Virus record (IMG/VR): IMGVR_UViG_3300021185_000822
Coordinates: 1-22,575 of that record
DNA: 22,575 nucleotides
Source of the DNA: a virus
Strand: one strand, 5' to 3'
Made by a program: the position numbers and the translations under genes. Below the pieces are notes generated by a model, which had not been told where the DNA came from, made no database searches, and saw nothing but the letters and a program-made list of their open reading frames with translations. Shown piece after piece: positions 7,197 through 18,594 of the stretch (positions are counted from its first letter, which is position 1; each line of letters begins with the position of its first letter).

Positions 7197-7919
7197 ATGG
7201 CTAACTTTGTATCTTTAGTTAATCAAGCATTACGCCGTGTCAATGAAGTTGAACTTGATATTGGTGGTGATGGCTTTAGTGATGCTCGTAACTTACAGGC
7301 ATTAGCTAAGGACGGAATTAACTCTGCTATACGTGAGTTACTGCAGAATAGTCAAGAGTGGCCTTTTACACTTACAACATATACGCAAACCCTTACCCCT
7401 GGTATAGGTGTGTATGACTTTGCCTCAGATGCTTCTAAGATTGACTGGGACACTATCTACCTTAAGCGTTTATCTTCTAAGGGTAATACACCTGCTAGAT
7501 TATCTGTGATCACTTATGAGGACTACATTCGTAAGTACCGCTCAGGTGAAGATGTTAGTGGTGTAGATGGGTATAGTATACCTAACATTGCTTACCAGAC
7601 GCAGGACATGAAGTTTGGTATCACACCGCTACCAGATGATGCCTATGAGCTAGAGTATCGCTACTGGTCATACCCTAGTGACCTAATCTCTTATAACGAT
7701 GAGTGCATAGTACCTGATCGCTTTAATACCGTGATAGTTGATGGTGCGGTTATGTATCTCATGCGCTTCCGTGCCAATGAACAGAGTGCTGCATTACACC
7801 AGCAGAAGTTTGAGGATGGTATGGATAACATGCGCCGTTTACTTCTTGACTTACCTTTATACGTTAGATCCTCTGTAATAGCAGGTAGATACTTCAACAA
7901 GCAGACTGGTACTAATTAA
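7197..7919 (+). CDS. Head-to-tail adaptor / tail tubular protein A-like
   Basis: 240 residues, ATG 7 bases after TAGGA. The protein would form the ring beneath the portal that links head to tail (role of T7 gp11 or P22 gp4). Evidence is an N-terminal helical region (FVSLVNQALRRVNE and AINSAIREL-type helices), a central WPF-TLTTYTQTL beta segment followed by a YDFASDASKIDWD stretch, and a C-terminal helix bundle (FNTVIVDGAVMYLMRFRANE), which is the layout of this adaptor family. Length and position directly after the capsid gene fit. The stop overlaps the next start (TAATG), indicating coupled translation with the nozzle-like protein. Confidence 0.75.
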   Translation: MANFVSLVNQALRRVNEVELDIGGDGFSDARNLQALAKDGINSAIRELLQNSQEWPFTLTTYTQTLTPGIGVYDFASDASKIDWDTIYLKRLSSKGNTPARLSVITYEDYIRKYRSGEDVSGVDGYSIPNIAYQTQDMKFGITPLPDDAYELEYRYWSYPSDLISYNDECIVPDRFNTVIVDGAVMYLMRFRANEQSAALHQQKFEDGMDNMRRLLLDLPLYVRSSVIAGRYFNKQTGTN

Positions 7920-9466
7920 TGGCTGATAACCTACGTACCTTTGCTACGCCTTGTATGGGTGGCTTGGTGGTTAACCAAGATCCGCTTACACAGGGCGGTC
8001 AGATGCCGGGGTCAGCATTACGTCTGATTAACTATGAGCCTGCCTTGAACGGCGGGTATAGACGTATCTCAGGGTATGCCAACACATACGGTGAAGTACC
8101 TGGTGAAGCTAATACTCCTGTGCTAGGTGTACACGTATCTGCTGATATTAATGATGGTATCTTTGCAGCACGTAAGCCTGATGCAGGTAATGACTACCTC
8201 CATAAGTGGAACGACACTACGGAAGCTTGGGATGCTGTTACTAGCGTAGGTTCTCCTACTATGGTTGGTGTATCTAAGGTACGCTTTGAAAGCTTTAACT
8301 GGGGTGCTCCTAAGTTTGCTATGGCTGATGGTATTAACTCTGCATCTACATGGGATGGTACTACACATGTTCAGCTTAACACGGGTCAAGCGCCCAGCGC
8401 ACCCAGCCTAGTTGCAGCATTTAACAATCATTTATTTCTAGCTGGTGATCCTTCTGAGCCTTACAACCTTTACTTTAGCGCCCCCGTAAATGAGAATGAC
8501 TGGACACCTGCTTCTGGTGCTGGCGTTATTAACGTAGGCTTTGAGGTTGTTCAGCTTAAGACATTCCGTAATGAGATGTATATCTTTGGGCGTAATAACA
8601 TTAAACGCTTAGTGGGTAATAACATTGCTGACTTCACCCTACAAACAGTTACTGCTAACCTTGGTTGTGTTGCCCCAGATAGTGTAGCAGAGTTTAACGG
8701 TGAGATACTCTTCTTAGCACCTGATGGTATTCGCCCTGTAACTGGTACTGACCGCATTGGTGATATTGAGTTAGCTACGCTGTCTAAGCCTATCCAGTCT
8801 ATCTTTGAGGATTACACAGCTAACGAAGATCTTGCTACAATGACTACTGTAGTACTAAAAAAGAAGTCACAGTTTCGTTTATTCTTTACTAATCAAGACT
8901 CACTTGGTATTATTGGCGCTATTCGGCGCAGTGGACAGGGTGGCGCAGGCTTTGAGTTTAGCCAGCTAGTAGGTGTATCAGCCTACTGTGCAGACAGTGG
9001 CTACATTGGTGATGAAGAGTTTGTGATACATGGAGATAGTGTTGGTTATGTTTTCCGTCAAGAAGTAGGTAATGACTTTGATGGTAGAGACATCTTTAGC
9101 TTATTCCAGACTCCCTTCTATTACATGGATGACCCTGCAGTACGTAAGTCCTTCTATGACATTGATACGTACATGCGCTCAGAGGGTGAAGTAACGGTTA
9201 ACATGGCTGTTGATTATGACTACAGTAACCCTTCCGTAACTATTGGGCCTGACTATACGTTGTCTACTGCAGGCGCTGCAGCTTACTACGATAAAGCTAC
9301 CTACGACACCACAGACATTTACGATGGCAACCCATCACCTGTAGAGAGTACGACTATATCAGGCTCAGCTAAGTCCATCTCAGTTCGCTACGTTGCAAAC
9401 AATACAAAACCTAGTCATACTATTCAGGCTATTACACTAACATACGGCCTTGGTGACAGGCGCTAA
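7919..9466 (+). CDS. Tail tube / nozzle-like protein (tail tubular B or P22 gp10-like)
   Basis: 515 residues, beginning in a TAATG overlap with the adaptor gene and lacking its own clear ribosome site. It is mostly beta strand. Near residues 35-50 is a GGYRRISGYANTYG motif typical of proteins at the base of short phage tails, then repeated WD/WN-rich strands (YLHKWNDTTEAWDAV, STWDGTTHVQLN, NHLFLAGDPSEPYNLYFS) that suggest a propeller-like core. Later comes NEMYIFGRNNIKRLVG and GEILFLAPDGIRPVTGTDRI. Position, size (T7 gp12 is ~790 residues, P22 gp10 ~470) and pattern favour a P22 gp10-like stabilising or nozzle subunit. Which family is closer cannot be settled by eye. Confidence 0.7.
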   Translation: MADNLRTFATPCMGGLVVNQDPLTQGGQMPGSALRLINYEPALNGGYRRISGYANTYGEVPGEANTPVLGVHVSADINDGIFAARKPDAGNDYLHKWNDTTEAWDAVTSVGSPTMVGVSKVRFESFNWGAPKFAMADGINSASTWDGTTHVQLNTGQAPSAPSLVAAFNNHLFLAGDPSEPYNLYFSAPVNENDWTPASGAGVINVGFEVVQLKTFRNEMYIFGRNNIKRLVGNNIADFTLQTVTANLGCVAPDSVAEFNGEILFLAPDGIRPVTGTDRIGDIELATLSKPIQSIFEDYTANEDLATMTTVVLKKKSQFRLFFTNQDSLGIIGAIRRSGQGGAGFEFSQLVGVSAYCADSGYIGDEEFVIHGDSVGYVFRQEVGNDFDGRDIFSLFQTPFYYMDDPAVRKSFYDIDTYMRSEGEVTVNMAVDYDYSNPSVTIGPDYTLSTAGAAAYYDKATYDTTDIYDGNPSPVESTTISGSAKSISVRYVANNTKPSHTIQAITLTYGLGDRR

Positions 9467-10923: not shown

Positions 10924-11766
10924 ATGTCAACTCAAATACAACGCCGTAGAGGCACAACATCAGAGCATTCTACCTTTACAGGTGCAGCTGGTGAAATAAC
11001 TATTGATTCAACAAAGAATACAGTAGTCGTACACGATGGTTCCACACAGGGCGGGATTCCTCTTGCTAAGGAGTCAGCTTTAGCTTCCACAGTGGGTGCT
11101 CTCACTGATGTAACCATTACTTCTGTAGGTGCAGGAGAGCTACTGAAGTACAGTGGCTCTGAGTGGGTAAACAACACTCTAGCAGAAGCAGGTATTGTAG
11201 CTACAGGTGACATTGGCTCTACTGTACAGGCTTACGATGCTAACCTTGCAGGCTTTGCTACAGCACTCACACTGCCCGTAGCTGATGGTACAACAGGACA
11301 GTTCCTCAAGACAGACGGTGCAGGTAACGTAACCTTCGCTAGTATCCCTACCATTAACACACTGAATGACATTGGTAACGTAACTATTACGGGTGCATCT
11401 ACTGGTGAGTTTTTACAGTGGAGCGGTTCAGCTTGGATTAACGCTGTAGTAGAAGCCTTCGACGTACAGACACAAACTACTACTGCTACAACGCAAGTAA
11501 CTGTTGCATCTTATAACGCAACAACGTATGATGGTGTTAAAGTTGTCATTACTATGCACGACTCTGTAGCCACTGAGCGTAGCATTACTGAGATACTTAT
11601 CACACATGATGGCACTACTGCTGTAGCTACTGAGTATGCACAGGTTAATACTGCTACTGCGTTGGCTACGTTTGATGTAGACATCTCTGGTGGTAACGTC
11701 CGTATCCTAGCTACACCAGCAAGCACTAATAGCACAGCGTTTACAGTTAAAGCTATTACTCTGTAA
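10924..11766 (+). CDS. Fibre/adhesin with Mtd-like N-terminal domain
   Basis: 280 residues; ATG directly follows the fibre stop, with CGGAG 8 bases upstream. Residues 1-48 (IQRRRGTTSEHSTFTGAAGE, then DSTKNTVVVHDGSTQGGIPL) match the N-terminal attachment domain of the Bordetella phage major tropism determinant and many fibre-tip proteins. Two related beta segments follow, at 60-86 (LTDVTITSVGAGELLKYSG) and 147-175 (LNDIGNVTITGASTGEFLQW). Residues 120-140 hold GTTGQFLKTDGAGNVTF, a common fibre connector. Residues 180-280 are a Thr/Val-rich beta-sandwich-like domain. There is no C-type lectin fold pattern, so it is not an Mtd orthologue. Likely a trimeric fibre element that docks on the phage tail. 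Confidence 0.7.
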   Translation: MSTQIQRRRGTTSEHSTFTGAAGEITIDSTKNTVVVHDGSTQGGIPLAKESALASTVGALTDVTITSVGAGELLKYSGSEWVNNTLAEAGIVATGDIGSTVQAYDANLAGFATALTLPVADGTTGQFLKTDGAGNVTFASIPTINTLNDIGNVTITGASTGEFLQWSGSAWINAVVEAFDVQTQTTTATTQVTVASYNATTYDGVKVVITMHDSVATERSITEILITHDGTTAVATEYAQVNTATALATFDVDISGGNVRILATPASTNSTAFTVKAITL

Positions 11767-11777
11767 GAATGTATAGA

Positions 11778-11819
11778 CAACTATGGAAGGTGAAGTAGAT
11801 GTCAAACAATAAAGACTTC
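11778..11819 (+). repeat. 42-bp exact direct repeat, copy 1 (start of gene A)
   Basis: This stretch, beginning CAACTATGGAAGG and ending AAAGACTTC, contains the ribosome site and first seven codons (MSNNKDF) of propeller gene A. It is identical base for base to 14271-14312 at the start of propeller gene B. Homology stops abruptly on both sides. Confidence 0.95.
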
Positions 11820-13724
11820 AAAGTAAAGAATGGTATTCAACCCACGGTCTATCACGAGGCTGTGGGTACAGTTGTGTCTGGTAGTGTGGGATATAGTCTT
11901 AGCTCTGCCCGTTATGATAGTAAGAGTTTTAGTGTTGCTAGTCAGGACGCTAACCCAACAGGTGTCGCATTTAATAGTGATGGAACCAAGATGTACATTA
12001 CTGGAAATACGAATGATAATGTTTTCCAGTATACACTTAGTACGGCCTTTGACGTTAGCACGGCATCTTATGATAACGTATCTTTGAGCGTTACGCCTCA
12101 GACAACAGTTGCTACTGATCTTACCTTTAAGCCAGATGGCTCTGTTCTTTACGTTTCAGGAACTACAGCAGTATATCAATATACTTTAACAACAAGTTAT
12201 GATTTAAGTACTGCATCCTACGCATCAAAAAGTTTAACAGTTAGTGGACAGCAGGCCAGCAACCAGTCTGTAAAATTCAATGACGGCGGCACTTCTGTGT
12301 TTATTGTAGGGACTAGCCCTAGGACGGTATTCCAGTACACGTTAAGCACTGCTTGGGATTTATCAACGGGTAGCTACGCATCAAAGAGCTTTAGTGTCGA
12401 AACACAGGATACTCAGCCTTCTAGCTTGGCCTTTAGCACAGATGGTAACAAAATGTTTATTTCAGGTAGGACTGCTGACGCCGTGTACCAGTATTCCCTG
12501 TCTAGCTCATTTGATGTTTCAACAGCTTCTTACGATGATGTTTCTTTAGATGTATCTGGCCTAGAGACAAACCCGTTTGGGCTAGTCTTTGGTGATAGCG
12601 GTACTAAGATGTATGTAGTCGGCCTTACTAATGACACCATCTACCAATACTCCACAGTTCAAACCACAGCATCCCTAGACCTATCCACAGGTTCAGTCTT
12701 TGACTACACCCCAACGTCTGACGTACAGGTAACACTAACCAACCCTGCTGCTAGTGGGACATCTAGTGGTGCTACGTTGTTGTTGGAAGGGGCTGGCTCT
12801 GCTGGTTTCGATATAGCTAATGCGTCCAGTCAGAGCAAGACTTTTGATTCAAGTGAAGATACGGGTGTAAATACTTTGTTCTTCAAGTCAGACGGTACAA
12901 AGCTATATCTAGGCGGCAACCAAAACGACACTGTATATCAATACACATGCTCTACCGCATTTGATATTACAACAGCAACATACGATAGTAAATCATTTAG
13001 TGTTACATCTCAGGAAACAGCTATTGCAGGTCTCTTCTTTAAATCAGATGGGACTAAAATGTATGTTTGTGGTGACGTTGGTGATGCTGTATTTGAATAC
13101 GATTTAAGCACTGCTTGGGATGTATCCACCGCTTCGTATAACAGCGTAAGTTTGTCAATAAGTGGACAGACTAGTGGCCCCGCTGAGTTGTACTTCAAGT
13201 CTGACGGTACTTCATTTTACGTTTGCTCAAGTAACAACGGCAAAGTGTTTCAATACAATATGACAACAGCATGGAGTGTATCTACCGCAAGTTATGCCAG
13301 TAAAAGTTTAACGCTTACAGGTCAAGGCAGTAGCCACTATGGCATAGCCTTTAATGACTCAGGAGATAAACTATTTGTTTGTAATCTAGCTGATGATAAA
13401 GTCTATCAATATGCGCTAACTACTGCATGGGATTTAGCAACAGGCTCTTATGCTAGTATAAGTTATGACCCTTCTCTGTCAAACCCAAGATCAATAAACT
13501 TCTCAGCAGACGGGAAGATTATGTACATTCTACCTACAAGTGGTGTGATCTACCAATACAACTCAGCTACACCAGCCACCATCACATACGACAGCACCCT
13601 ACAGTGGTCTGGCGGTACAGCACCTACGTCACCCGCTATAGGTGAAACAGACGTACTAACATTCAACACGACAGACGGTGGCACTACATACCAAGCTGTA
13701 CAAGCTATAAACGGTGCAAAATAA
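11799..13724 (+). CDS. Propeller-repeat tail protein A (two five-blade modules)
   Basis: 641 residues, ATG behind AAGGTGA. Residues 1-38 are a head segment (FKVKNGIQPTVYH) shared with gene C. Residues 39-286 hold five ~50-residue repeats of the form YxSKSFSVxSQ...FxxDGTKMYVxG...VYQYxLSTAWDVSTAS, resembling four-stranded propeller blades of YVTN/NHL style. Residues 293-335 are a beta linker (DLSTGSVFDYTP). Residues 346-589 hold five more blades. Residues 601-641 (WSGGTAPT...DVLTFNTTDGGTTY) form a small C-terminal domain common to A, B and C. No enzyme motif is visible. Position within the fibre cassette suggests a receptor-binding or tail-decoration protein. Function is inferred; the repeat structure is seen directly. 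Confidence 0.8.
   Translation: MSNNKDFKVKNGIQPTVYHEAVGTVVSGSVGYSLSSARYDSKSFSVASQDANPTGVAFNSDGTKMYITGNTNDNVFQYTLSTAFDVSTASYDNVSLSVTPQTTVATDLTFKPDGSVLYVSGTTAVYQYTLTTSYDLSTASYASKSLTVSGQQASNQSVKFNDGGTSVFIVGTSPRTVFQYTLSTAWDLSTGSYASKSFSVETQDTQPSSLAFSTDGNKMFISGRTADAVYQYSLSSSFDVSTASYDDVSLDVSGLETNPFGLVFGDSGTKMYVVGLTNDTIYQYSTVQTTASLDLSTGSVFDYTPTSDVQVTLTNPAASGTSSGATLLLEGAGSAGFDIANASSQSKTFDSSEDTGVNTLFFKSDGTKLYLGGNQNDTVYQYTCSTAFDITTATYDSKSFSVTSQETAIAGLFFKSDGTKMYVCGDVGDAVFEYDLSTAWDVSTASYNSVSLSISGQTSGPAELYFKSDGTSFYVCSSNNGKVFQYNMTTAWSVSTASYASKSLTLTGQGSSHYGIAFNDSGDKLFVCNLADDKVYQYALTTAWDLATGSYASISYDPSLSNPRSINFSADGKIMYILPTSGVIYQYNSATPATITYDSTLQWSGGTAPTSPAIGETDVLTFNTTDGGTTYQAVQAINGAK
11913..12656 (+). repeat. 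Five-blade module A1
   Basis: Codes for five tandem blades starting YDSKSFSV, YDNVSLSV, YASKSLTV, YASKSFSV and YDDVSLDV. Four of the five end in the TLSTAWDLST-type signature; the last is cut short at YQYSTVQ and runs into the linker. Blades are conserved as protein but differ at many synonymous sites. Confidence 0.85.
12834..13565 (+). repeat. Five-blade module A2
   Basis: Codes for five blades starting SKTFDSSE, YDSKSFSV, YNSVSLSI, YASKSLTL and YASISYDP. It is a second copy of the module inside gene A, separated from A1 by the linker. Three blades carry a Cys after the KMYV strand (MYVCGD, FYVCSS, LFVCNL), not seen in A1. Confidence 0.85.
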
Positions 13725-14305
13725 TGGGACACGAGGCGTTTGGCTATCAGTGGATAAGAAAGTCCACTGGAGAGTTCTATAGAGGAATACATCGGGGTAA
13801 TCCTGAGGACAACTACTCAGGCAGTGGTGTACTTTTTAACAAGAAGTTTGGTGGAAGACGCAAGACAGAGTGTAAAGACCCTGAGGATTGGGTACGTGAT
13901 GTTTTGTTTATGGGTACATACGATGAGTGTTTACTTTGGGAATCTCTTGTAGTTACTGAACGAGTGTTAGAAGACCCAACGTGTTTAAACTTTGTTGTCG
14001 GAGGTAATAGAGGTTCTATTGGTAGAGAGATTACGGAAGAGACTCGTGCTAAAATGTCTAAGTCTCAGTCGGGTAGAAAGCATAAACCTGAAACGTTAGA
14101 GCTTATGTCGCAAAACAATACAGGCTCTAATAATCCTAGATACGGTGTAGCGGTGTCTGAGGAGACTAGAAAACGAATAAGTGCCGCAAGTAAAGGCCGT
14201 AGACACTCAGAAGATGCTAAACGAAAACAGTCAGAAGCTAGGAAAGCTTGGTGGGCTAAACGTAAAGAGGCAACTATGGAAGGTGAAGTAGATGTCAAAC
14301 AATAA
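13724..14305 (+). CDS. Free-standing homing endonuclease, GIY-YIG-like with NUMOD3 motifs
   Basis: 193 residues; ATG overlaps the stop of gene A (TAATG) with no clear ribosome site. Residues 7-21 (GYQWIRKSTGEFYRG) align by eye with the GIY...YIG core. They are followed by YSGSGVLFNKKFG and a helix with a possible catalytic Glu (LLWESLVVTERVL, residues 70-82) and CLNFVVGGN, the usual order in phage GIY-YIG enzymes. The first Tyr position is Trp and the YIG Ile is Arg, so activity is uncertain. Residues 104-125 and 145-173 (SEETRKRISAASKGRRHSED) are NUMOD3-type DNA-binding repeats; the C-terminus is Lys/Arg/Trp-rich. Such enzymes cut alleles lacking the gene and spread by repair. It ends inside the 42-bp repeat, overlapping gene B by 14 bases. 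Confidence 0.75.
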   Translation: MGHEAFGYQWIRKSTGEFYRGIHRGNPEDNYSGSGVLFNKKFGGRRKTECKDPEDWVRDVLFMGTYDECLLWESLVVTERVLEDPTCLNFVVGGNRGSIGREITEETRAKMSKSQSGRKHKPETLELMSQNNTGSNNPRYGVAVSEETRKRISAASKGRRHSEDAKRKQSEARKAWWAKRKEATMEGEVDVKQ

Positions 14306-14312
14306 AGACTTC
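14271..14312 (+). repeat. 42-bp exact direct repeat, copy 2 (end of endonuclease, start of gene B)
   Basis: Identical to 11778-11819. Here it supplies the last codons and stop of the endonuclease (ATMEGEVDVKQ, in another frame) and the ribosome site and first codons (MSNNKDF) of gene B. The two copies bracket gene A plus the endonuclease gene. Confidence 0.95.
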
Positions 14313-15431
14313 GTAGTGAATGGCCCTGTCGCTGTAGGCAAGGATACCAAGGTTACAGTAGGTAGTATTACATCAAGTGACATTGACCTAAGCACAGGCA
14401 ACTACTTTGATGACACACTAGCTGCTAATACGACATACACGATTAGTAATGCTGGGGATGTGCAAGCGTTTCAGCTAGAGGTTACTGGTGGCGCAGCTAA
14501 CAATGACGCTTGGGACTTTATCGGAAGCTCAACATTTGTTCAGAGTTTTAGCGTTAGCGCAAAAGTAAGTAAACCCCAAGACGTTGCCTTTAAGCCTGAC
14601 GGCACTAAAATGTATGTCTTAGATAGTACAGCTGATGATGTAACTGAATATGATTTAAGTACAGCTTGGGATATCTCCACTTCCGTGCATTTACAGCAAC
14701 AAAGTGTAATTTCTCAAGACACCACCCCAAGAGGCTTTTTCTTTAAACCTGATGGTACTAAGATGTATCTTACTGGCCATACTGATTTTGTGTACGAATA
14801 TAACTTAACTACGGCTTGGGACATAACTACGTTGAGTTATCTTCAAAGTTTTGATGTTAGTAGCCAAGACACAATAGTAAGAAACATCTTCTTTAGAGAT
14901 GACGGTATTAAAATGTACATGATTGGTGATTCATCTAACAGTGTACACGAATACGATTTAAGCACAGCTTGGGATGTTTCCACGTTAAGCCACCTTAGAA
15001 GCGATGCTTTAGCTGCCACGGAAGATGACGTTGGTGGTTTATTCTTTAAGTCTGATGGTACGCTTATGTATGTAATGGGGAATGGTCGAAATGACGTAGC
15101 AACATACGAGTTAACAACCGCTTGGGATGTTTCTACCTCTAGCATTGTTAATTTTACAAGCGTATCAGCTCAAGATACTATACCTTTCGGCTTATTCTTT
15201 AAACCTGATGGTAGTAAGGCGTATGTTTGTGGTAACACTGCTGACGAAGTACACGAGTACGATATAGGGGCGTATGCTGATTTATCTATCACATGGCCTA
15301 GCTCAATAGAGTGGGCTGGTGGTGTAGCACCTGCTGCCCCTGCTAATGGTGAGACAGACGTATATACATTCACGACTGACGATGGTGGCACGACATACAC
15401 TGGTGTTAAGTCAATAGATAACGCAAGCTAA
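14292..15431 (+). CDS. Propeller-repeat tail protein B (one five-blade module)
   Basis: 379 residues; the ribosome site AAGGTGA lies inside the upstream endonuclease gene, so translation is probably coupled. It starts MSNNKDF as in A. Residues 31-68 (DLSTGNYFDDTLAANTTYTI) correspond to the linker that lies after the blades in A and C, but here it precedes them. Residues 83-325 carry five blades (SFSVSAKVSKPQDVAF first, FTSVSAQDTIPFGLFF last). Residues 335-379 are the shared C-terminal domain (ITWPSSIEWAGG...DVYTFTTDDGGTTY). The blades are more divergent than those of A. Likely a tail adhesin paralogous to A. Confidence 0.8.
   Translation: MSNNKDFVVNGPVAVGKDTKVTVGSITSSDIDLSTGNYFDDTLAANTTYTISNAGDVQAFQLEVTGGAANNDAWDFIGSSTFVQSFSVSAKVSKPQDVAFKPDGTKMYVLDSTADDVTEYDLSTAWDISTSVHLQQQSVISQDTTPRGFFFKPDGTKMYLTGHTDFVYEYNLTTAWDITTLSYLQSFDVSSQDTIVRNIFFRDDGIKMYMIGDSSNSVHEYDLSTAWDVSTLSHLRSDALAATEDDVGGLFFKSDGTLMYVMGNGRNDVATYELTTAWDVSTSSIVNFTSVSAQDTIPFGLFFKPDGSKAYVCGNTADEVHEYDIGAYADLSITWPSSIEWAGGVAPAAPANGETDVYTFTTDDGGTTYTGVKSIDNAS
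14538..15266 (+). repeat. Five-blade module B
   Basis: Five blades with FFFKPDGTKMY-type cores and EYDLSTAWDIST-type ends. The blade starts are degenerate compared with A and C (HLQQQSV, HLRSDAL, IVNFTSV). The third blade is nearly identical at DNA level to a blade of module A2 over 35 bases (14949-14983 against 13095-13129, two mismatches). Confidence 0.8.
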
Positions 15432-15448
15432 TAGAGGAGAGTGAATCT

Positions 15449-16579
15449 ATGGAAGCGTTTAAGATTAAGAACGGCATTAGTGCCACACGGTATTTAGGCA
15501 GTAACGGTACTGAGACTGCTGGAAGTGAGGGGTATAACCTTGCTGGTGCTAGTTATGATAGTGTTAGTTTTAGTGTTCTTAGCCAAACAGGTACTATGCA
15601 AGGTTTTCGTTTTGGGGACAGCGGGAGCAAAGTTTATGTTGCCAGCCCATCCGATGCAACGATATATCAATATAATCTATCAACAGCTTATGACATTTCC
15701 ACAGCATCATATGCTAGTAAATCTTTCTTGGCATCATCGCAATCAGCAAGTTCATATGCTGTAGATTTTAAGTCTGACGGTACTAAGATGTATATTCTTG
15801 CGATGACCAATGATTCAGTTTATCAATACAGTTTAAGTACGGCATGGGATGTGTCTACGGCAAGTTACGATAGTGTTAGCTTTAGTGTAAATTCTCAAGA
15901 AGCTACACCCGCACATGTGGAGTTTAAGGTAGATGGTACATCTTTTTATGTCGTTGGTGTAGGTAATGACACGATTTACCAGTACGACATGACAACTGCT
16001 TGGGATTTAAGCACTGCGTCGTATGCCTCTAAAAGCATGTCCACAGGGCTAACTAATCCATATCACTTTACATTTAAACCAGATGGCACAACAATCTTCG
16101 TTGCTGAAAACGCTGATATTATAACACAGTTTTCACTTACAACTGCGTGGGATATTTCAACAGGTAGTACAGATAGTATTACATTAGATGTATCCTCTGA
16201 GGTAACAGGTGATATCGCCATTCAGTTTAACGGGGATGGGACAAAACTTATAGCAGGCGGTGATATAGCAGATGCTTTACACCAATACTCCACAGTATCA
16301 TACACCCAAACCCTAGACCTATCCACTGGTACTACATTTAGCTTCACCCCTAGTGGTGCAACTACTGTGTCGTTCACTAACCCACCAGCATCAGGTAATG
16401 CTATAGGTTTCTCTTTAGAGATTAATGGTGACGGTAGTGCTATCACATGGCCTAGCTCAGTAAAGTGGGACTTAGCTACAGCACCAACAGCTACAGCAAC
16501 AAAAGAGTTATACACGTTTGTTACAACAGATGGTGGCACAACGTATTACGGTAAGAAAGCAGCGGAGAACTTGGCATGA
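15449..16579 (+). CDS. Propeller-repeat tail protein C (one five-blade module)
   Basis: 376 residues, ATG 9 bases after AGAGGAG. Residues 1-35 (MEAFKIKNGISATRYLG) resemble the head segment of A. Residues 36-282 hold five blades (YDSVSFSV, YASKSFLA, YDSVSFSV, YASKSMST, TDSITLDV). Residues 289-328 are the linker (DLSTGTTFSFTPSG), placed after the blades. Residues 331-376 are the C-terminal domain (ITWPSSVKW...LYTFVTTDGGTTYYG). Twenty bases encoding ITWPSS (16440-16459) are identical to gene B (15286-15305). The stop overlaps the next start (ATGA). Probable receptor-binding or decoration protein. Confidence 0.8.
   Translation: MEAFKIKNGISATRYLGSNGTETAGSEGYNLAGASYDSVSFSVLSQTGTMQGFRFGDSGSKVYVASPSDATIYQYNLSTAYDISTASYASKSFLASSQSASSYAVDFKSDGTKMYILAMTNDSVYQYSLSTAWDVSTASYDSVSFSVNSQEATPAHVEFKVDGTSFYVVGVGNDTIYQYDMTTAWDLSTASYASKSMSTGLTNPYHFTFKPDGTTIFVAENADIITQFSLTTAWDISTGSTDSITLDVSSEVTGDIAIQFNGDGTKLIAGGDIADALHQYSTVSYTQTLDLSTGTTFSFTPSGATTVSFTNPPASGNAIGFSLEINGDGSAITWPSSVKWDLATAPTATATKELYTFVTTDGGTTYYGKKAAENLA
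15554..16294 (+). repeat. Five-blade module C
   Basis: Five blades closer in sequence to module A1 than to B; the fifth again ends YQYSTV-like (HQYSTVS) and runs into the linker, exactly as module A1 does. Confidence 0.85.
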
Positions 16580-18594
16580 GTAATACTAAAACAGTAATGG
16601 GCCAAGCGTCTAACCAGTTTGCACCTGGTCCTGATGTTACTGAGGTGTTTAATACCTATTTGTGGAAAAGCTCTACTTCAGGTGCAACCATTAACGTAGA
16701 AAATGGTATTGATATTGCTACTGAAGGTGGTATGTTCTGGGCTAAGTCAAGATCACAGAACGATACAGCTCAGATTTATGATACAACACAGAGCGGAGAT
16801 AAGTATCTCGTCCCAAGTGAGACTAGTGCATTACAAACAGAGACTGGAGCCATAGCATTTAACACGGATGGGGTAGATGTTGCGGAAAACGCATACATAA
16901 ACTCTAGTTTTGCTGCTAGAACTTATGTTGGTTGGACATTCCGCAAAGCCCCTAAGTTCTTTGACATAGTGGAATTTGAAATAACTCGGGATGGAAGTAA
17001 TAACCTAACATCTACTTCTTCTAACGTAACTATAACCAACGGTGAAGTTACTGTTGACCATAATTTAGGAGTTGCACCAGCAATATGGTTTCAAAAGTGT
17101 CTTACAACGACAGCGGCTTGGTATGTAAGAAGTACAATATCTGGTACTGTTGGCGGATATGGGCAATTACATAGAACTAGTGCTTGGGCTGGGGTAGGTA
17201 ATTGGACTTTCCCTGCGACTGACACGCAAGTTGGCTTTGGTAATTATGGCTTTTTCCCATCAGGTACACATACATACGTTGCCTACCTCTTCGCACACAA
17301 CAATGGTGACGGTGAGTTCGGCCCTGATGGTGACCAAGACATTATCAAGTGTGGTAGTTATACAACTGATGGTAGTGAGGAAGCTACTATTGATCTTGGC
17401 TGGGAACCTCAGTGGGTTCTATTTAAAAGAACAGATAGTTCAACAGGGGGTGATTGGAACTTATTTGACACTATGCGAGGGCTTACTGCTGACACTTTGG
17501 GGGATGGCGCAAAGTTACTTGAACCAAACACGTCTGATGCAGAATTAGCTACAAGCAGAATAGCAGTAACGCCTACAGGGTTTAAGGTAGACAATTACGG
17601 AGCAAGTCGTGACTTCATCTACATGGCAATCCGCCGTGGCCCTCTTGCTCCACCTGAGAGTGCGACTGAGGTGTTTGCTATTGATAGCGAAAGCACAACT
17701 GCACCAACTCCACCAAGTTACAATACGGGGTTTGCTGTTGATATGTTTTTGTCTAGACGTGACGTAACTACGAGTGGTAGTTGGTATTTATATGATAGAC
17801 TACGAAAATCTGACGTTGGGTTGATACCTAACGCAACAAACGCAGAGTTAGTTTCAGGTGGATCATACAGCACAAACGATAGAAATGATGGTATCGGCTC
17901 CTATACAGGGACTGTATATTCAAATAAAGCATATGGTTATATGTGGAAACGTGCGCCTAACTTCTGTGACGTTGTGGCCTACACGGGTAACGGAACAGCA
18001 GGACGTACTGTAAGCCATAACCTTGGTGTTGTACCTGAGATGATCTGGGTGAAGAAGCGCAGTGGTGTAGACCCTTGGTGTGTTTATCACACTGGTTTAG
18101 ATGTTGATGGTGACGGTAGGCCTGAAACAGACTTTATACGTTTTAGTACAAGTGCTGCCTCTGATAGTAATACGCTTTGGAACGATACTGCACCGACTAG
18201 CACTGAATTTACTTTAGGCACAAACCAAGACTGTAACCACTCAGGAAACACTTTCATAGCCTACCTCTTCGCAAGCCTCCCCGGTATATCGAAGGTGGGG
18301 AGCTACACGGCTGATGGAAACGCACAGAATATTGACTGTGGCTTTACGTCAGGTGCTAGGTTTGTGCTGATTAAACGAACTGATACTTCTGGCAACTGGT
18401 TTGTACTTGATACAGCTAGGGGTATTGTCTCTGGAAACGATCCTCTACTAGAGTTAAATTCAACAGGGGCAGAAGATAACCAGTACGATAACTTAGACCC
18501 TTATAGCGCAGGGTTTACGGTTGCCGCCTATGGTGGGACATCACCTTACTTGAACATATCTGGCGGTGAATACATCTTCTACGCAATCGCATAA
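16576..18594 (+). CDS. Tail adhesin with internally duplicated domain
   Basis: 672 residues, ATG 7 bases after CGGAGA and overlapping the stop of gene C. The protein is two copies of a ~320-residue unit. Copy 1 is about 22-352 and copy 2 about 365-672. Matching landmarks are YVGWTFRKAPKFFDIV (117) with YGYMWKRAPNFCDVVAYTG (453), DHNLGVAPAIWFQK (161) with HNLGVVPEMIWVKK (481), YVAYLFAHNNGDG (234) with FIAYLFASLPG (560), and CGSYTTDGSEEATIDLG (259) with VGSYTADGNAQNIDCG (574). It is beta-rich and aromatic, without a catalytic motif I can name. The motifs resemble domains common in marine phage fibres. Last gene of the adhesin cassette; likely a receptor-binding protein. Confidence 0.7.
   Translation: MSNTKTVMGQASNQFAPGPDVTEVFNTYLWKSSTSGATINVENGIDIATEGGMFWAKSRSQNDTAQIYDTTQSGDKYLVPSETSALQTETGAIAFNTDGVDVAENAYINSSFAARTYVGWTFRKAPKFFDIVEFEITRDGSNNLTSTSSNVTITNGEVTVDHNLGVAPAIWFQKCLTTTAAWYVRSTISGTVGGYGQLHRTSAWAGVGNWTFPATDTQVGFGNYGFFPSGTHTYVAYLFAHNNGDGEFGPDGDQDIIKCGSYTTDGSEEATIDLGWEPQWVLFKRTDSSTGGDWNLFDTMRGLTADTLGDGAKLLEPNTSDAELATSRIAVTPTGFKVDNYGASRDFIYMAIRRGPLAPPESATEVFAIDSESTTAPTPPSYNTGFAVDMFLSRRDVTTSGSWYLYDRLRKSDVGLIPNATNAELVSGGSYSTNDRNDGIGSYTGTVYSNKAYGYMWKRAPNFCDVVAYTGNGTAGRTVSHNLGVVPEMIWVKKRSGVDPWCVYHTGLDVDGDGRPETDFIRFSTSAASDSNTLWNDTAPTSTEFTLGTNQDCNHSGNTFIAYLFASLPGISKVGSYTADGNAQNIDCGFTSGARFVLIKRTDTSGNWFVLDTARGIVSGNDPLLELNSTGAEDNQYDNLDPYSAGFTVAAYGGTSPYLNISGGEYIFYAIA

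Follow-up and report, generated by a model that had tools for sequence, protein, structure and literature searches.

Introduction

The mobE gene of T-even phages lies at the nrdA/nrdB junction, where its start overlaps the upstream stop by one nucleotide (UAAUGA), an arrangement that has been read as translational coupling (PMC2988022). Promoters of the downstream genes are embedded in the coding regions of segG, segA, segE, mobB and mobC, which favors retention of these endonuclease genes (PMC2988022). The putative endonuclease gene described here resembles mobE in that its start overlaps the upstream stop by one nucleotide, and it resembles segG, segA, segE, mobB and mobC in housing a predicted control element that belongs to the gene downstream. 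It was noticed in a viral contig of 22.6 kb, called the window below.

Results

The phage and its adhesin operon

The phage is an HMO-2011-type marine phage. The capsid protein of the window is 83-89% identical to those of Roseobacter phages CRP-2, CRP-603 and CRP-207, and 58% identical to that of Puniceispirillum phage HMO-2011. No tRNA genes were found in the window. The operon of interest encodes, in order, an Mtd-domain tail protein, adhesin A, the endonuclease, adhesins B and C, a DUF7483 protein (D) and a tail chaperone. Its features are as follows.

10924..11766, + strand: Mtd_N-domain tail protein, upstream of A
11778..11819, + strand: exact 42-bp repeat, copy 1, leader plus start of A
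11799..13724, + strand: adhesin A, 641 aa, propeller-like repeats, left neighbor of the endonuclease
13713..13724, + strand: last 12 nt of A, GGTGCAAAATAA, left edge of the transferred tract, with the TAATG stop/start overlap
13724..14305, + strand: endonuclease gene, 193 aa, ATG start, NUMOD3 repeats and predicted GIY-YIG-type catalytic domain
13736..13996, + strand: predicted GIY-YIG-type catalytic domain, residues 5-91 (AlphaFold model, VIA-align, profile and family alignments)
14021..14182, + strand: NUMOD3 motifs, predicted DNA-binding part
14271..14291, + strand: leader of B with Shine-Dalgarno-like GGAAGGTGAAG, within the last codons of the endonuclease and missing from empty A|B junctions
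14271..14312, + strand: exact 42-bp repeat, copy 2, endonuclease end, leader plus start of B
14292..15431, + strand: adhesin B, 379 aa, right neighbor of the endonuclease, which overlaps its start
15449..16579, + strand: adhesin C, 376 aa
16576-16579: C/D stop/start overlap ATGA, the site taken by a related endonuclease in contig L011
16576-18594: DUF7483 protein D, followed by the tail chaperone

The label "adhesin" for A, B and C reflects weak beta-propeller and tail-fiber profile matches; A and B are paralogues. The three proteins (window 11799-16579) are composed of propeller-like repeats of about 52 residues. In an alignment of B relatives, invariant residues cluster at both ends and the middle is variable. 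Elsewhere in the tail region, many relatives of the gene at window 7919-9466 carry about 80 additional in-frame residues near residue 99 (L006:212-451, L187, L189, L190, L193, L195), which the window gene lacks.

Domains and predicted fold of the endonuclease

The preliminary description had seen here a NUMOD3 protein with a GIY-YIG-like core between paralogous adhesins, and domain and structure comparisons agree. The two NUMOD3 motifs of the 193-aa protein score 58.4 bits, well over the cut-off of 20.4, and the protein matches PHROG 314, "homing endonuclease", at E 3e-20. The GIY-YIG core of the window protein falls below the threshold of every sequence model. Pfam reports NUMOD3 only, both for the window protein (E 0.1) and for four relatives (E 1), and a distant relative, L012, scores 22.2 bits against SegE_GIY-YIG (PF19835), for which the cut-off is 25. 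The AlphaFold model is confident over residues 1-90, with block means of 82-96. The best structural partner found by VIA-align for residues 1-92 is I-TevI (1ln0), with Z 7.2 over 79 of 92 residues; 1mk0 is another of the best partners. All of the top seven VIA-align matches are GIY-YIG-type enzymes (I-TevI at 7.2 and 6.8, PD-T4-3 at 5.5-5.8, UvrC at 4.0), with Z values that are themselves moderate, and the next row stands at Z 3.1. Foldseek alone returned no significant match for the model (best E 0.35), and the profile of the endonuclease family matches I-TevI weakly in a search against PDB (E 0.012). The catalytic domain is predicted to be of GIY-YIG type from VIA-align and the family profile match, Foldseek having contributed nothing significant.

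Residues Y8, Y19, E73 and N89 of the window protein correspond to Y6, Y17, E75 and N90 of I-TevI. The two tyrosines are invariant in a 14-member alignment that includes canonical members, and in the family alignment N89 is invariant and E73 nearly so. Motif A reads GYQ...YRG, a degenerate GIY-YIG signature. Family and profile alignments gave no clear counterpart of the motif-B arginine, Arg27 of I-TevI, and equivalents of I-TevI Arg27, His31 and His40 were not identified in the window protein. Because of the degenerate signature and the missing clear counterpart of the arginine, the activity of the enzyme could be altered. A role in a defense system was considered and rejected, as PADLOC matched "homing endonuclease" models alone.

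Empty and occupied A|B junctions

Relatives of the endonuclease, of A, B and C, and of the upstream tail gene were gathered from IMG/VR, and their junctions were read. The A|B junction is readable in 42 contigs, nine with the endonuclease and 33 without; the contigs are metagenomic and include near-duplicates (L004, L005, L197 and L198 share nearly one gene), so the nine occupied contigs represent fewer independent events. Relatives with an uninterrupted A|B junction, whose absence would have counted against the preliminary description, do exist, and the edges of the insertion lie at TA^ATG.

The empty A|B junction is a bare stop/start overlap, TA^ATG, without a leader; in a few contigs it is shifted by two bases. 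Genes of this operon generally overlap in this way, whether the endonuclease is present or absent. The empty junction of L115 reads GGGGCTAAATA^ATGGCTAAC (or, with a longer B side, GGGGCTAAATA^ATGGCTAACGATAAAGACTTC), and the occupied junction reads GGTGCAAAATA^ATGGGACAC...CTATGGAAGGTGAAGTAG^ATGTCAAAC, with the insert placed exactly at the ^ of TA^ATG. In the window, the TAA of A (13722-13724) shares one nucleotide with the endonuclease ATG (13724-13726), giving TAATG, and the endonuclease stop (14303-14305) falls 14 nt into B, whose ATG begins at 14292. The bases of the leader serve as endonuclease codons, TMEGEVDVKQ-stop, overlapping the Shine-Dalgarno and start of B. The endonuclease thus does end in the leader and start of its neighbor, as first described, with the refinement that the leader belongs to the insert, since empty A|B junctions have none.

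Short flanking tracts travel with the endonuclease on both sides (co-conversion). On the left, GGTGCAAAAT at the end of A is found in seven of seven distinct occupied junctions, whereas all 26 empty ones lack it. On the right, the first 45 nt of B in L009 (occupied) and L039 (empty) are identical from nucleotide 10 on, and differ only as ATGTCAAAT versus ATGGCTAAC, inside the first nine bases.

The 42-bp repeat mentioned in the preliminary description is real, its two copies being exact. It is nested in a 53-nt repeat of 92% identity, and this leader repeat is the only self-match of the adhesin region with at least 40 nt and at least 85% identity.

Predicted 16S pairing for B is -6.8 kcal/mol behind the insert, against a mean of -5.4 in empty junctions. 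The endonuclease start of the window has a predicted Shine-Dalgarno energy of -3.0 kcal/mol, and in L003, L004 and L198 the endonuclease's own Shine-Dalgarno is not weak (-6.8); these energies assume that the host has the standard anti-Shine-Dalgarno. A T4-style hairpin masking the ribosome-binding site was rejected, since predicted RNA structure is unremarkable at the endonuclease start (z -0.4), the B start (z 0.9) and the A start (z 0.7). The endonuclease has its own reading frame between complete genes A and B. An intron or intein was likewise rejected, because the flanking genes are complete and Rfam gave no match to an intron family.

Transfer and selection

The endonuclease gene has been transferred between divergent phages. 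Its DNA in the window is 88% identical to that in L003, 85% to L004 and L197, and 91% to L008, and the range with L198 included is 85-91%, while tail-core and chaperone genes of the window are only 65-84% identical to those of L003, L004, L197, L198 and L008, and A/B of these five are about 68% identical to the window's. L162 and L151, by contrast, lack the endonuclease, yet their cores are 89-95% identical to the window. The gene is also under purifying selection. With codons that overlap B left out, dN/dS is 0.06-0.2 in most pairs with a computable dS; low values outside the overlap imply that the protein is selected as a protein. Identity above that of the core, absence from near relatives and purifying selection together indicate that the 13724-14305 reading frame encodes a mobile, free-standing homing endonuclease that is probably active.

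Related endonucleases at other junctions

Related endonucleases occupy the Mtd|A junction in L204 and in the contig fragment L165, and the C|D junction in L011. At Mtd|A, the first endonuclease codons, MSNTKD, duplicate the start of A itself (compare L152, ATGAGCAATACTAAAGAT), and in L204 the last codons are the same leader, here ahead of A. At C|D, the last codons of the L011 endonuclease, AAGDIA, duplicate the end of C (compare L039, GCAGGAGATATAGC[ATGA]); the A|B junction of L011 is empty. Each of these occupied junctions is rebuilt so that both neighbors keep an end and a start. In L008, the endonuclease ends not in the leader but in a copied A-type 3' end (GATGGAGCTTCGTA^ATG), which gives B a GGAG. 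The window protein shares 54-58% identity with family members at other junctions; the switches of site are therefore old.

The shared leader

The exact 25-mer ACAACTATGGAAGGTGAAGTAGATG was found in 15 viral contigs, always at the adhesin locus. In seven of them it follows this endonuclease, in one it follows an HNH/endonuclease VII-like gene, and in the other seven it precedes A with no endonuclease. The HNH/endonuclease VII-like gene (L097:3655-4145, equal to L251:3968-4462; PHROG 1035, E 4e-20) lies downstream of the Mtd-domain gene and upstream of A; there the leader bases end the HNH gene in another frame, reading GNRQLWKVK-stop. The bare leader ACAACTATGGAAGGTGAAGTAG precedes A without an endonuclease in the window (11767-11798), L119, L126, L143, L173, L176 and L082/L242; the commoner leader before A is GACAAGGGGAAAGGTGAACC.

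The leader ACAACTATGGAAGGTGAAGTAG before A may be the footprint of a lost endonuclease, or else a native allele that endonucleases later entered. No gene of the L097 HNH type was found in other phages of the group. Its other relatives (L252-L257) have no window genes nearby, and the leader is absent from the HNH gene ends read in L252, L253, L254 and L256. The footprint idea thus has one occupied example.

A wider reading can be offered tentatively, and we hold it to be somewhat less probable than its negation. One endonuclease lineage would hop from one paralogous stop/start junction to another within a single adhesin operon, rebuilding the ends of both neighbors each time. It would carry a portable ribosome-binding site and start codon, and would hence be hard to delete. 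Its right-hand end would be held in common with the unrelated HNH/endonuclease VII-like gene at Mtd|A in L097, in another frame, and the bare leaders of the window and its gene-free relatives would be footprints of lost endonucleases.

Discussion

Proposed mechanism and alternatives

We consider it very probable that the gene is a free-standing GIY-YIG/NUMOD3 homing endonuclease that spreads among co-infecting HMO-2011-type phages through cutting of empty adhesin junctions and repair copying. The edges and the gene-free alleles are read directly from the contigs, and the family occupies three junctions of the one operon. The enzyme would cut an empty adhesin junction in a co-infecting phage, and repair would copy the endonuclease gene into the cut. 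Because the gene lands at stop/start overlaps, insertion would leave no gene broken. Since its ATG overlaps the stop of A, the endonuclease is probably made in small amounts, through re-initiation. Translation of B would now proceed from the leader GGAAGGTGAAG and the start codon within the last 11 codons of the endonuclease.

The alternative that survives best, though we judge it unlikely, is a remnant that no longer cuts and is kept since its removal would take the ribosome-binding site of B as well. The leader of B does lie inside the endonuclease gene, and a degenerate GIY-YIG motif with no clear counterpart of the motif-B arginine would suit such a remnant. It accounts poorly for the low dN/dS over the non-overlapping part of the reading frame and for the spread of the gene between divergent phages.

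The preliminary description supposed that the enzyme could shuffle A, B and C. In a related reading, less likely still, it is kept for promoting recombination among them and so diversifying receptor binding. Its position at junctions between paralogous adhesins, the homology offered by the 42-bp repeat and the known co-conversion of flanks by homing (PMC2988022) favor the idea. Two tests of enzyme-driven shuffling were negative, however, and it was rejected. Among gene-free pairs with core identities of 88-96%, identity of A is just 66-71%, the same as in endonuclease-bearing pairs, and in one gene-free pair with a 99% identical core A stands at 83%. Nor do endonuclease-bearing genomes show a surplus of high-identity paralogue tracts, the window having the leader repeat only. 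Cassette changes at the B position also occur in gene-free phages: in L163, L167, L173, L177 and L200, a D-like protein (compare 16576-18594) replaces the propeller-like adhesin. The adhesins vary regardless of the endonuclease; it is the endonuclease gene that moves among the paralogous junctions (Mtd|A, A|B, C|D).

Vertical inheritance as an ordinary phage gene of the operon, with overlaps that merely reflect the compact packing usual there with or without the gene, is highly improbable. Against it stand the patchy presence of the gene, its three different positions, its identity above that of the core and its failure to follow core relatedness; the pairwise identities point to a discordant gene tree.

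Comparison with known systems

A mobile homing endonuclease at this locus affords a base-resolved view of how a selfish gene can enter a tightly packed operon harmlessly: the upstream stop provides its start, and its coding sequence conceals the predicted ribosome-binding site of the downstream gene. The three occupied junctions and many gene-free alleles make it possible to test how targets are chosen, how deletion is escaped and how sites are switched. The results also weaken the view that an enzyme of this kind drives shuffling of adhesins here.

The free-standing seg and mob genes of T4 are the known kind with the same logic. Like SegA-SegG and Seg-like genes, the window gene is intergenic, on the same strand as its neighbors and within an operon, with a predicted GIY-YIG-type catalytic domain, and its product shares about 33% identity with Seg-like proteins from, for example, phage Ac42. 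Unlike them, it lies in the tail-adhesin operon of an HMO-2011-type phage, is a variant without a clear motif-B arginine, belongs to a family found at three junctions of one operon, and has the predicted Shine-Dalgarno of the downstream gene in its last codons. The fold predicted for residues 4-92 resembles the catalytic domain of I-TevI (1ln0/1mk0), with equivalents of Tyr6, Tyr17, Glu75 and Asn90; I-TevI is intron-encoded, whereas the window endonuclease is free-standing. MobE differs in being of HNH type, and nrdB downstream of it has a separate promoter in the spacer, whereas here the downstream start lies within the endonuclease frame. In segG, segA, segE, mobB and mobC a promoter is embedded, whereas the element here comprises a predicted ribosome-binding site plus start codon, brought by the insert. 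As far as the openly searchable literature shows, a ribosome-binding site and start codon forming the end of an endonuclease gene are new, as is one endonuclease family at three junctions of one adhesin operon.
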